A DNA stretch of 35,595 nt from Candidatus Aenigmatarchaeota archaeon. GTDB taxonomy: Archaea > Aenigmatarchaeota > Aenigmatarchaeia > QMZS01. Numbering within the stretch: the stretch's first letter is position 1; every line of letters begins with the position of its first letter. Shown here in pieces: positions 27,597 to 31,126 of this stretch. The DNA lies in the NCBI GenBank assembly GCA_030614705.1, contig JAUWTN010000005.1:1-35595 (forward strand), given 5' to 3'. A model generated the notes under the pieces. The model was not told the DNA's origin. It saw nothing but the letters and a program-made list of their open reading frames with translations, and ran no database searches. The position numbers and the translations under genes were made by a program.

Positions 27597-27647
27597 CTTA
27601 AGTCCTGCTCCTTTGGCCAGACTCGGACACTCCCGCATTTTAATATG

Positions 27648-27664
27648 TTTTTAAAATTAAATTA
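27648..27664. promoter_or_regulatory. AT-rich TATA-like box for tRNA-Leu and the HD gene
   Basis: tttttaaaattaaatta lies ~12-28 nt upstream of the tRNA 5' end on the minus strand and ~23-39 nt before the ATG at 27687 on the plus strand, the distances expected of archaeal TATA boxes for both. This is a sequence-only call in AT-rich DNA. Confidence 0.4.
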
Positions 27665-27686
27665 CTCAAATATTACTAATATTCTT

Positions 27687-28358
27687 ATGGATAAAGAGGT
27701 TATAATCAGAAAAACCGAGGAATACATTAAAAAGAGGTTTGAAGGGGAATCCACAGGACATGGGTGGTGGCACCTCCAAAGGGTTTTGAAGATGAGCCTG
27801 AAAATCGCTGAAAAGGAAAAAATAAATTCTTCGGAAGAAATTAACTTATTTGTTGTCCAGTTAGCCGCATTATTGCATGATATTGCTGACTGGAAATACA
27901 ATTCATGGGATGATTCTGTGGGTTACAAAATGGCTAGGAAATGGCTTGAAAAATTAGAAGTTGATGAAAAAACAATTTCTTCTGTTTGCGAGATTGTGAA
28001 AAATATATCTTTCCGTGGAGGAACCGTAAATTCTGAAATGAAGACAATTGAAGGAAAAATTGTTCAGGATGCGGACAGGCTGGATGCGATTGGGGCGATT
28101 GGTATTGCAAGAACTTTTGCTTATGGGGGATTGAGAGACAGGGAGATTCATAATCCTGATATGAAACCAATAAAATGTAAATCTTTTGAAGAATATAAAA
28201 ATTACAAAGGAACCTCAATCAATCATTTCTATGAAAAAATATTGTTGCTGAAAGATAAGATGAATACTGAAACAGGGAAGGAAATTGCTGAAGAAAGGCA
28301 TAAGTTTATGAAGAGTTTTCTTGAGGAATTTTTTGGGGAGTGGGAAGGGAAGAATTAG
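27687..28358 (+). CDS. HD-domain phosphohydrolase (YpgQ/YedJ type)
   Basis: 223 residues from the ATG at 27687; an earlier ATG at 27645 would overlap the probable promoter and adds a non-family N-terminus. Metal ligands are GHGWWHLQRV (His25/His29), ALLHDIADWK (His64-Asp65, the HD pair) and VQDADRLDAIGAIG (the late Asp). The FAYGGLRDREIHNP and NHFYEKILLLKDKMNTE segments are typical of YpgQ/YedJ-like enzymes, some of which hydrolyse dNTPs. The substrate is not predictable. It is divergent from tRNA-Leu and convergent with the HEPN gene. Confidence 0.87.
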   Translation: MDKEVIIRKTEEYIKKRFEGESTGHGWWHLQRVLKMSLKIAEKEKINSSEEINLFVVQLAALLHDIADWKYNSWDDSVGYKMARKWLEKLEVDEKTISSVCEIVKNISFRGGTVNSEMKTIEGKIVQDADRLDAIGAIGIARTFAYGGLRDREIHNPDMKPIKCKSFEEYKNYKGTSINHFYEKILLLKDKMNTETGKEIAEERHKFMKSFLEEFFGEWEGKN

Positions 28359-28371
28359 TCAACTCAAATTC

Positions 28372-29286
28372 CTATTTATCTTTAGATATTTCAAAATCAA
28401 ATTCTTGTAATTTCAAAGAACATTCAATTAAATAGTTTACACAAAAATCGAAATCTTCTTGACTGATTTTTGCATTTGGTGGTAAATTGACTTTTGGCAA
28501 GATCCCACTAGCTAGATACCAATCGGGCTCAGGAATTAATAATCTAAATTTAATATATTTCTTATAATTCAATCCAAAAGCCAATATTTTTACGGCTTTC
28601 TGCATAGATTCAATTGATTTGTTAACTTTGTCCACGAATTCTTTCATTTTATTCCCGGTCATTTCTTCACCCATAAAAAAACTATCCAAATGAGTCAGAT
28701 CCTCTCCAAAAAAGAAGGGCGATTCTCCAAATTTCGAGGTTTTTGAAGATTCATAATCCCTTATAAGAAATTCAAGTGAAAATGAAATTTTTTCAATTGC
28801 GTTCTTTTGATTATCATTATATGAATCAATCGCCTCTTTAATAAATCCTTTTACTCTTGTATTTTCAATTAATTCAATTAAGGATATTTCTTGGATATTT
28901 AATTCATAAACATTTTTACAGAGTCCTTCAAAAAGATTGTTTGCAGTAAATTTAGATTCTTCAATATCTGTTTTTGACGGAAACAATCCTTTATGTTTTA
29001 GATTTACTCGTCTTTCTTTTAGTTTAACTAAACTAGGTCTTAACTCAAGCTCAGTTTTCTCATCATTTTTTAGCCACTCATTGATTTTATCAAAATATTG
29101 CATAAAACTTGTATTGCTATTTACCGTAATGTTTTTGTCTTCTAAAACTAAATTAAAAACTAATTCCAATGCATCATGATAATGTAATAATGCAATAGAA
29201 GATAAAGGTTCGGATTTAACTGATTCTTGGTTTCCCCTCTCAATTAAATATTTAGCAAATGCTAATCTTTTTATTATGTGTCTCAT
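28372..29286 (-). CDS. HEPN-motif protein, second gene of a two-gene cassette
   Basis: 304 residues from the ATG at 29286, which overlaps the upstream stop as ATGA; a start 18 nt earlier is less likely. The helical N-terminal half has HYHDALELVFNLVLED and KERRVNLKHKGLFPS. RVNLKH (Arg93-x4-His98) is the R-x4-6-H motif of HEPN ribonucleases, with the expected polar residue and trailing KHKG. The second half (~150-304) is helical plus a small C-terminal segment and is not recognised. HEPN proteins in such pairs often act as RNase toxins or abortive-infection effectors; that role is inferred here. It is coupled to the gene at 29283-30002. Confidence 0.65.
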   Translation of the reverse strand: MRHIIKRLAFAKYLIERGNQESVKSEPLSSIALLHYHDALELVFNLVLEDKNITVNSNTSFMQYFDKINEWLKNDEKTELELRPSLVKLKERRVNLKHKGLFPSKTDIEESKFTANNLFEGLCKNVYELNIQEISLIELIENTRVKGFIKEAIDSYNDNQKNAIEKISFSLEFLIRDYESSKTSKFGESPFFFGEDLTHLDSFFMGEEMTGNKMKEFVDKVNKSIESMQKAVKILAFGLNYKKYIKFRLLIPEPDWYLASGILPKVNLPPNAKISQEDFDFCVNYLIECSLKLQEFDFEISKDK

Positions 29287-30002
29287 TTTCCGTACGCCCC
29301 GCAAAATATTATAAACCTCTCACCAATTTGATTTAATTTTCCATGAATTGCATCAAATCCCCGACTCATGGTCGTTGCTTCAAAACTAATTTCTCCAGCC
29401 TTAGTTAATCCATAAGTATATAATTCAGCAAAACTCTTTTTTAGTATATCTATATCCACTTCGTTAAATGCCAGTTCAAGCATTTTTAAAAATGAATCAT
29501 TTGGGATTTTATCTCTAACTTGATTTATAATATCAATTTCATCAAAATAATTTTCAGGAGATTTTAAAAATCTAATAATTTTCAATTGAAGTGGGGTTAA
29601 TTTTTCTATTAGTTTTAAATAAAAATCTTTTTCATCATTATTGCTTTGCTTATTTCGATCTAAATTACCAATAAGAAAACCAATATAATATCTAATTTTT
29701 TCTTCATTAAATTCTTCCAAACTTCTCTTTAATGTAATTTCAAAATAATAAGCAAATTCTTCGGTTTTTATATACTCTTCATTTAATGAATCTTTAATTT
29801 CGTCCACATCATTTCCAATTTTCTCAACGATTTTTTTAAGTCTTTCATGTTTAAAATCAGGGATATAATCATTCATTAAAGAATTCAAACTACCTCCTAC
29901 AAAAGGAATTGCAGCAACTAATGCTTTAACTCCACTAATAATAGGTTCTCCAACATGAGTTTCATCAATTTTTCTAATTTCTATTGAATATTTTTTATCC
30001 AT
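29283..30002 (-). CDS. Hydrophobic-helix/coiled-coil partner of the HEPN protein
   Basis: 239 residues. ISGVKALVAAIPFVGGSLNSLMNDYIP (~22-48) is a hydrophobic Gly-containing helix that could insert in membranes. It is followed by a helical charged region (RLKKIVEKIGNDVDEIKDSL, EEFAYYFEITLKRSLEEF, KIRYYIGFLIGNL) and a C-terminal winged-helix-like region (KLTPLQLKIIRFLKSPEN, ELYTYGLTKAG). The layout recalls a widespread uncharacterised family (IPxVG helix, then 'RxxRL', then a long helical domain) often seen near defence genes, as I remember it. The stop TGA overlaps the next ATG. It starts 41 bp after tyrS on the same strand. It could be a sensor or a membrane effector. Confidence 0.6.
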   Translation of the reverse strand: MDKKYSIEIRKIDETHVGEPIISGVKALVAAIPFVGGSLNSLMNDYIPDFKHERLKKIVEKIGNDVDEIKDSLNEEYIKTEEFAYYFEITLKRSLEEFNEEKIRYYIGFLIGNLDRNKQSNNDEKDFYLKLIEKLTPLQLKIIRFLKSPENYFDEIDIINQVRDKIPNDSFLKMLELAFNEVDIDILKKSFAELYTYGLTKAGEISFEATTMSRGFDAIHGKLNQIGERFIIFCGAYGK

Positions 30003-30043
30003 AATCCTAACACATCTTTCCTCGCATCTTTCAAATTTAAATA

Positions 30044-31126
30044 CTATCGAGTAACCCGAGCCGACCTAACAATCTCCAACAACTCCCCGGCCTTTTTATT
30101 CTTCTCAAAATGAGTCCTAACAGGTTCAAGCAATTTTATTAATTCATCTGAAACCCCATTCTTCAAATCCAATGGATGAATTTTTCCTTCCTTATAATCT
30201 TTCTCAAGAGATTCATAATTTTCAAATTCCAGATTTCCTCCGAATTTATCAGGTCTTTCAATCTTAAACATTTCACTCTCCCTAAAAATTATGTATTTGC
30301 AAAGTTCAAGAACCGGATTTCCATTAACTTCTTTTTCAGGACAGAATGCTTTGTTTAGTTTTCCTTTTATTTCTTTCGGAGAATCATGAACAAACACGCA
30401 GGTTTCTGGTTTGCTCTTGCTCATTTTAAAATCTTCAGGTTGAATTCCCGCCTGCTCGCTGCCCATTCTCTGCGGTCCAAGAAGACCTGATAGAAGATGA
30501 TGGTGAACGCAAACTGGTTTTTTGAATCCCAACTTTCCCGCAATTTCTCTGGACAAAATAGTTGCATGCCTCTGGTCCATTCCCAGCTGGCATATATCAA
30601 CCCCAAGTTCAAAAGGGTCTGCTGCCTGCATCACAGGATAGAATAACTGGGAAGTGTAAACCATATCGCCTTCTTTCCTGCCCATCACTGTGCAGCACCG
30701 CATTATTCTTTTTGTGGTTGTTAGTTTTGCCACCTCAAGAACCTTTTTCCAATACTCTTTATTATTAACTAAATCGCTTGACCACACAATTTCAACTTTA
30801 TTCATATCCACGCCAAGAGAACCCCACACTTCTATAAGGTATTTTCCTGCCTGCTGGATTGTTTCAAGGTCGCCGCCCATTTTATTATTTATCCACCCAA
30901 ACCAATCAGCGATAACTAATTTAAATTTACAACCTGCATCAACCATATCTCTTAATTTAATTGCCCTCATCAATCCTGTGCCAACATGAGCAATCCCGGA
31001 AGGCTCAAACCCATCATAAGCAACAGGGTGATTATTTGTCTCAAGCAATTCTCTCAATTCCTCCTTGGTTATAACTTCTTCAGTTGGAGATTTCAGAATT
31101 AAATCAATTCTTTCCTCTAAATCCAT
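30044..31126 (-). CDS. tyrS: Tyrosyl-tRNA synthetase, archaeal type
   Basis: 360 residues, class Ic. YDGFEPSGIAHVG carries the HIGH-equivalent (Tyr, Asp for tyrosine); VIADWFGWINNKMGGD, QLGMDQRHA and FKMSKSKPE (KMSKS loop) follow. It lacks the bacterial S4 domain, as in archaea and eukaryotes. C-terminal helices include PVRTHFEKNKKAGELL. The start is 3 bp after the stop of rps2, so the two are co-transcribed. Confidence 0.95.
   Translation of the reverse strand: MDLEERIDLILKSPTEEVITKEELRELLETNNHPVAYDGFEPSGIAHVGTGLMRAIKLRDMVDAGCKFKLVIADWFGWINNKMGGDLETIQQAGKYLIEVWGSLGVDMNKVEIVWSSDLVNNKEYWKKVLEVAKLTTTKRIMRCCTVMGRKEGDMVYTSQLFYPVMQAADPFELGVDICQLGMDQRHATILSREIAGKLGFKKPVCVHHHLLSGLLGPQRMGSEQAGIQPEDFKMSKSKPETCVFVHDSPKEIKGKLNKAFCPEKEVNGNPVLELCKYIIFRESEMFKIERPDKFGGNLEFENYESLEKDYKEGKIHPLDLKNGVSDELIKLLEPVRTHFEKNKKAGELLEIVRSARVTR

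Follow-up and report, generated by a model that had tools for sequence, protein, structure and literature searches.

HEPN domains carry an R-x4-6-H motif where the third helix of their bundle ends, and at least 16 HEPN clades are linked to restriction-modification (R-M) systems (Anantharaman et al. 2013, PMC3710099). Abi-alpha, encoded by prophage 6 of E. faecalis, is a single-gene abortive infection protein and brings about premature lysis (PMC6356687). PD-T4-10 is a toxin-antitoxin defense pair of E. coli encoded by two overlapping open reading frames (ORFs) (PMC9519451). Here we describe a gene pair that combines features of these systems, in a 35,595-nucleotide stretch of DNA (the window) from a Candidatus Aenigmatarchaeota archaeon whose genome assembly is 729 kb long and 78% complete. 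An earlier note, made from the sequence of the window, had proposed that the pair is a two-gene HEPN cassette and a possible new defense or toxin system.

The gap between tyrS and a gene for an HD-domain protein is filled exactly by the two genes, P0002 and P0001, which are co-directional and share a 4-base ATGA overlap (Table 1). We rechecked the ORFs, the overlap, and the codons of Arg93 (29008-29010) and His98 (28993-28995, numbered from the ATG at 29286); all coordinates and residue numbers in the earlier note were right. The overlap makes translational coupling of the two genes, as that note had also proposed, a reasonable expectation.

Table 1. Features of the P0002-P0001 locus (positions in the window)
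Feature	Position	Strand	Basis or remark
P0002, 239 aa, upstream gene of the pair	29283-30002	-	Abi-alpha-like partner protein; profile-profile match
P0001, 304 aa, downstream gene	28372-29286	-	HEPN protein, predicted RNase; invariant motif, AF2 model, Foldseek
ATGA overlap, P0002 stop/P0001 start	29283-29286	-	Sequence; putative translational coupling
R93-x4-H98 motif (RVNLKH) of P0001	28993-29010	-	Predicted catalytic residues; C-terminal end of model helix 83-99
H37-D38-x2-E41 of P0001	29164-29178	-	HEPN helix 2 (model helix 28-50); invariant
Acquired interval, HD-gene stop to tyrS stop	28359-30043	.	Other genes there in three close relatives; low GC
TATTTAAATTT, possible archaeal TATA box of the cassette	30033-30043	-	31 nt upstream of the P0002 ATG; putative function
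tyrS, flanking gene	30044-31126	-	
HD-domain gene, flanking	27645-28358	+	

We determined whether P0001 has the sequence and fold of a HEPN protein. Taken alone, one R-x4-H in one sequence says little, and it is the conservation of the motif across homologues that carries the assignment. R93, K97, and H98 were invariant in an alignment of 8 rows that included plasmid homologues. These three residues, together with H37, D38, and E41, were also invariant in an alignment of 18 rows that spans archaea, bacteria, and actinobacterial viral contigs, with identity down to 23%. The residue after R in the family's motif is mostly V; in HEPN motifs this position is usually N, D, or H. An AF2 model of P0001 (pLDDT 85; pTM 0.77) is all-helical, with helices at residues 2-21, 28-50, 61-74, 83-99, and 105-127; the N-terminal part is a four-helix HEPN domain, and the C-terminal domain, also helical throughout, is conserved. 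R93-x4-H98 lies at the end of helix 83-99, the third helix of the bundle, which is the arrangement described for HEPN domains (PMC3710099), and the conserved acidic residue of HEPN helix 2 has its counterpart in D38 and E41 of helix 28-50. Foldseek matched the four-helix bundle of the model to solved HEPN structures, namely SO_3166 (probability 0.99; TMt 0.63), Csm6 (0.98), the Sulfolobus protein 2q00 (0.96), and MntA-HpeT (0.94; TMt 0.66). The E-values of these matches were weak, about 0.5 to 1, despite the high probabilities, as is usual for short helical domains. A viral structure library gave one informative match, a phage HEPN protein (probability 0.82). Relative to its nearest kin, a gene of Ca. 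Ethanoperedens, P0001 is under purifying selection (dN 0.15 and dS 1.35 by YN00; dN/dS about 0.11 by YN00 to 0.24 by NG86). We conclude from the invariant motif and the predicted fold that P0001 is a genuine HEPN protein, as the earlier note had read from R-x4-H; the result it named as refuting, a structure prediction lacking a HEPN fold around that motif, did not occur.

The claim that neither protein is recognizable beyond the motif held for P0001 with respect to the libraries. Searches of Pfam, NCBIfam, PADLOC, and the PDB with the single sequences of P0001 and P0002 gave no match above cut-off, and P0001 fell into no family above cut-off in Pfam, NCBIfam, or PADLOC. A few members of the P0001 family had subthreshold matches to HEPN_Swt1 (0.016), HEPN_DZIP3 (0.06), and HEPN (0.078), the NCBIfam scan of family members gave no match, and the PADLOC scan gave a partial match only, to PDC-M32A. 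A scan with the exact seed missed the divergent family, which was recovered with an alignment of archaeal and Bacteroides sequences as the query. Of 156 genomes of the phylum, 4 (including that of the window) then proved to have a homologue; others were on 18 genome contigs, ranging from Lokiarchaeota to Haliea, on plasmids of Parabacteroides, Streptomyces, Embleya, and Paraburkholderia, and on viral contigs of actinobacterial type. One viral-contig homologue (L019:750-1742) lies upstream of HNH and terminase-like genes, a location typical of accessory genes carried by phages. The homologue on a plasmid of Streptomyces subrutilus (L006:1968-4954) comes after two genes with the annotation abortive infection family protein, and a very divergent homologue in another Aenigmatarchaeota genome (G108; L013:36-1040 and 1411-2343) lies near a Panacea/SocA-like and RelE-like pair. 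The nearest kin of P0001, from Ca. Ethanoperedens, is 75% identical. In a tree, P0001 grouped with the Ethanoperedens and Argoarchaeum proteins (support, 97/96), apart from two other Aenigmatarchaeota copies. Because P0001 does not group with the other copies of its phylum, this topology indicates horizontal transfer and separate acquisitions inside the phylum.

P0002 proved partly recognizable, contrary to the earlier claim. Its Pfam score against PF14337 (Abi_alpha) was 16.4 bits, below the gathering threshold of 29, and PF14337 was the commonest weak match among its homologues. We compared two profiles, one built from 17 P0002 homologues and one from bona fide PF14337 proteins. The two aligned over 210 columns (E, 5.8e-7; probability, 92), whereas reversed and shuffled control profiles gave E-values of 0.37 to 0.95. 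We conclude from this profile comparison that P0002 is a distant, full-length relative of Abi-alpha. A direct relationship of P0001 to either P0002 or Abi-alpha was rejected using hhalign. A link of the P0002 family to PD-T4-10 was too weak to keep: one distant member matches (E, 7e-5; partial) and P0002 itself does not. The single-sequence structure model of P0002 had a pLDDT of 36. An N-terminal hydrophobic Gly helix had been described in this protein; a hydrophobic IPFVGG stretch is indeed present, but its hydrophobicity is borderline (peak 19-residue Kyte-Doolittle mean, 1.77). Since the segment is also weak in Bacteroidota homologues, we dropped the membrane-effector reading of P0002, which is unsupported as a trait of the family. 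Scans of viral contigs and plasmids gave no P0002 homologue. The nearest homologue (37%) is from a genome in the same class as Ca. Ethanoperedens, where it lies downstream of a type IIG-like Eco57I/TaqI_C enzyme, with one small gene between them.

We compared the tyrS-HD interval with that of related genomes. tyrS was detectable in 10 of 11 genomes of the family. In three genomes of the same genus, tyrS is 94 to 98% identical at the amino acid level and has the same flanking arrangement with the HD gene, and the interval of about 1.1 to 1.6 kb holds content unrelated to the pair that occupies it in the window. G001 has an AP-endonuclease/sugar-isomerase-like gene there, G005 has a broken version of the same gene, and G007 has genes for a small membrane protein and a 2H-phosphoesterase/metallophosphoesterase fusion, all named from our reading of the sequences. 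These intervals correspond to L064:1658-3287, L065:2465-3545, and L066:1392-2676. DNA similarity between the window and these relatives breaks off no more than a few bases from a stop codon, that of tyrS at one end and that of the HD gene at the other. The GC content of the cassette is 27.5%, compared with 32.7% and 34.9% in the two flanking 5-kb segments, and only 0.15% of equal-sized windows have a GC content as low. The pair had been called an insertion-like unit, and the three lines of evidence (other genes at the site, the similarity break, and the low GC) agree with this. We conclude that the pair was acquired at the tyrS-HD site, where it replaced other content, and that the site is one of variable gene content in a DPANN genus. 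With P0002 in 1 of 95 relatives and P0001 as rare in the phylum as given above, the genes are accessory, not housekeeping.

Both families recur beside R-M genes. Such genes were present at 8 of 27 P0001-homologue loci and at 10 of 25 P0002-homologue loci; these are descriptive counts made without a random-locus control, and the main support for linkage is the placement of genes within hsd operons themselves. In Ca. Ethanoperedens (L020), the P0001 homologue sits between hsdM and hsdS with a 4-bp gap and overlap. It lies 71 bp after hsdR in Haliea (L034), and a genome from the Bacteroidales has it upstream of hsdR. On a plasmid of Parabacteroides distasonis (L003:3977-6577), the P0001 homologue follows a gene for a large Eco57I-type methylase, with SNF2 upstream, and precedes a TIR-domain gene, and in another Aenigmatarchaeon the homologue adjoins a GmrSD/AlbA_2 gene. 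For P0002, the operon order hsdM-hsdS-P0002-hsdR was found at L088 and L098, and with one extra gene at L086. Other P0002 homologues follow a D12 methylase gene (L100), accompany hsdM and an AlbA_2-like gene (L052), or lie near DUF499 (L053). The Chloroflexota HsdS at L098:4709-6454 has an N-terminal nucleotidyltransferase (Polbeta) domain, and its operon contains an unrelated small gene in addition to the P0002 relative. Since homologues of each family sit in R-M operons, we conclude on the basis of gene context that P0001 and P0002 are R-M-associated defense genes, here detached as a pair. The defense association suspected earlier is thereby strengthened.

A two-protein system is plausible. 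Our favored reading, to which we give an even chance, is that the pair is a horizontally acquired two-gene defense cassette in which a HEPN RNase is the effector and an Abi-alpha-like protein its partner or regulator. The cassette would have been assembled from two families that elsewhere are accessory to R-M operons. P0002 would be made first from a shared transcript, with translation of P0001 coupled to it. P0001 would be an endoribonuclease, of the metal-independent type expected in the HEPN superfamily, with R93 and H98 as catalytic residues and H37, D38, and E41 in support. The two proteins would most likely act as a complex or as an ordered pair, with P0002 either restraining or triggering the RNase; alternatively, P0002 may deliver an Abi-alpha-type second blow. 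As in PrrC and the R-M-linked HEPN clades (PMC3710099), the RNase would stay silent until infection is sensed and would then be released, so that viral infection would lead to RNA cleavage and the cell would be stopped or killed, a PrrC-like logic without an R-M system. An R-M trigger would be absent or unseen, because an HsdS domain was not found in the 78%-complete genome. The RNase activity, the physical coupling, the direction of control, and the antiviral outcome are what we infer for the pair. We hold only tentatively a stronger version, namely, that the pair is an immune system of two genes not described before, in which a new family of HEPN RNases is under the direct control of an Abi-alpha-like sensor or regulator. 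Such a system would have arisen by detachment of two R-M-operon accessories and moved between ethane-oxidizing and DPANN archaea.

The chief rival to a cassette is that two independent defense genes lie side by side, each acting alone, with the ATGA overlap reflecting compact packing only. The idea that the pair is a conserved system is unsupported: no second adjacent P0002-P0001 pair was found at any homologue locus examined of either family, and each family occurred without the other at all of these loci. The closest homologues of P0001 lack P0002, and those on viral contigs and plasmids are lone genes, so P0001 may not need a partner. Abi-alpha likewise functions as one gene (PMC6356687), and DPANN archaea are enriched in compact defense systems (PMC12988326). 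Set against independent action are the exact 4-base overlap in the same orientation, the arrival of both genes in a single low-GC interval, and the unusual niche inside type I R-M operons that both families share. We regard independent action as a serious possibility, though one that falls well short of even.

Classical toxin-antitoxin function, in which P0002 would be a dedicated antitoxin against a HEPN toxin and antiviral action would be secondary or absent, fits the antitoxin-first gene order, the overlap, and the accessory distribution. It also fits the Foldseek results, since the fold of P0001 is closest to HEPN-MNT toxins, and it has a precedent in PD-T4-10. P0002 is neither a nucleotidyltransferase nor a known antitoxin, however, and the occurrence of P0002 relatives without a P0001-family neighbor and of P0001 homologues without P0002 suggests that neither needs the other for tolerance. 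We consider this reading improbable. Very unlikely is that the genes are leftover accessories, now nonfunctional or serving R-M elsewhere in the genome, of an R-M system that has been lost or has escaped sequencing: the R-M linkage of both families and the incomplete assembly would allow it, but both frames are intact, P0001 is under purifying selection, HsdS was not found, and the pair came without R-M genes.

To our knowledge, few defense systems are known from archaea, and the favored cassette is probably a small stand-alone antiviral unit in a symbiont-type archaeon. P0001 represents a HEPN family of wide distribution (archaea, Bacteroidota, Actinomycetota, Chloroflexota, and viral contigs) that current libraries miss; it is distinct from the HEPN families that have a usable library model and may coincide with one that has none, such as Bxe_C0808 (PMC3710099). 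P0002 links Abi-alpha, an experimentally proven abortive infection family, to R-M operons and to archaea.

Among described systems, HEPN-MNT modules (SO_3166/SO_3165 and MntA-HpeT) are two-gene operons and provide the best structural matches to P0001. Their toxin is about half the length of P0001, and their partner is a minimal nucleotidyltransferase, whereas P0002 lacks an MNT domain and is Abi-alpha-like instead. Abi-alpha itself (PF14337/DUF4393) aligns with P0002 over its full length at the profile level. P0002 differs in falling below the Pfam cut-off, in its hydrophobic IPxxGG stretch, and in the genomic setting of its family, whose members occur in R-M operons and, in the window, ahead of a HEPN gene. 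With PD-T4-10, which gives abortive infection, the pair shares the layout of two overlapping ORFs. The R-M-embedded HEPN proteins, with their PrrC/PrrI logic (PMC3710099), have in common with the P0001 family the HEPN bundle, R-x4-H, the acidic residue of helix 2, frequent embedding in hsd operons, and a mobile, patchy distribution. PrrC and RloC fuse an ABC-ATPase to HEPN, whereas P0001 is a separate protein with no ATPase match and a helical C-terminal domain of its own; unlike the embedded proteins, it is encoded in the window without a surrounding R-M operon and has the product of an Abi-alpha-like gene as its putative partner. A functional pair would represent, in minimal form, a second-line guard of R-M that has become an antiviral unit in its own right.
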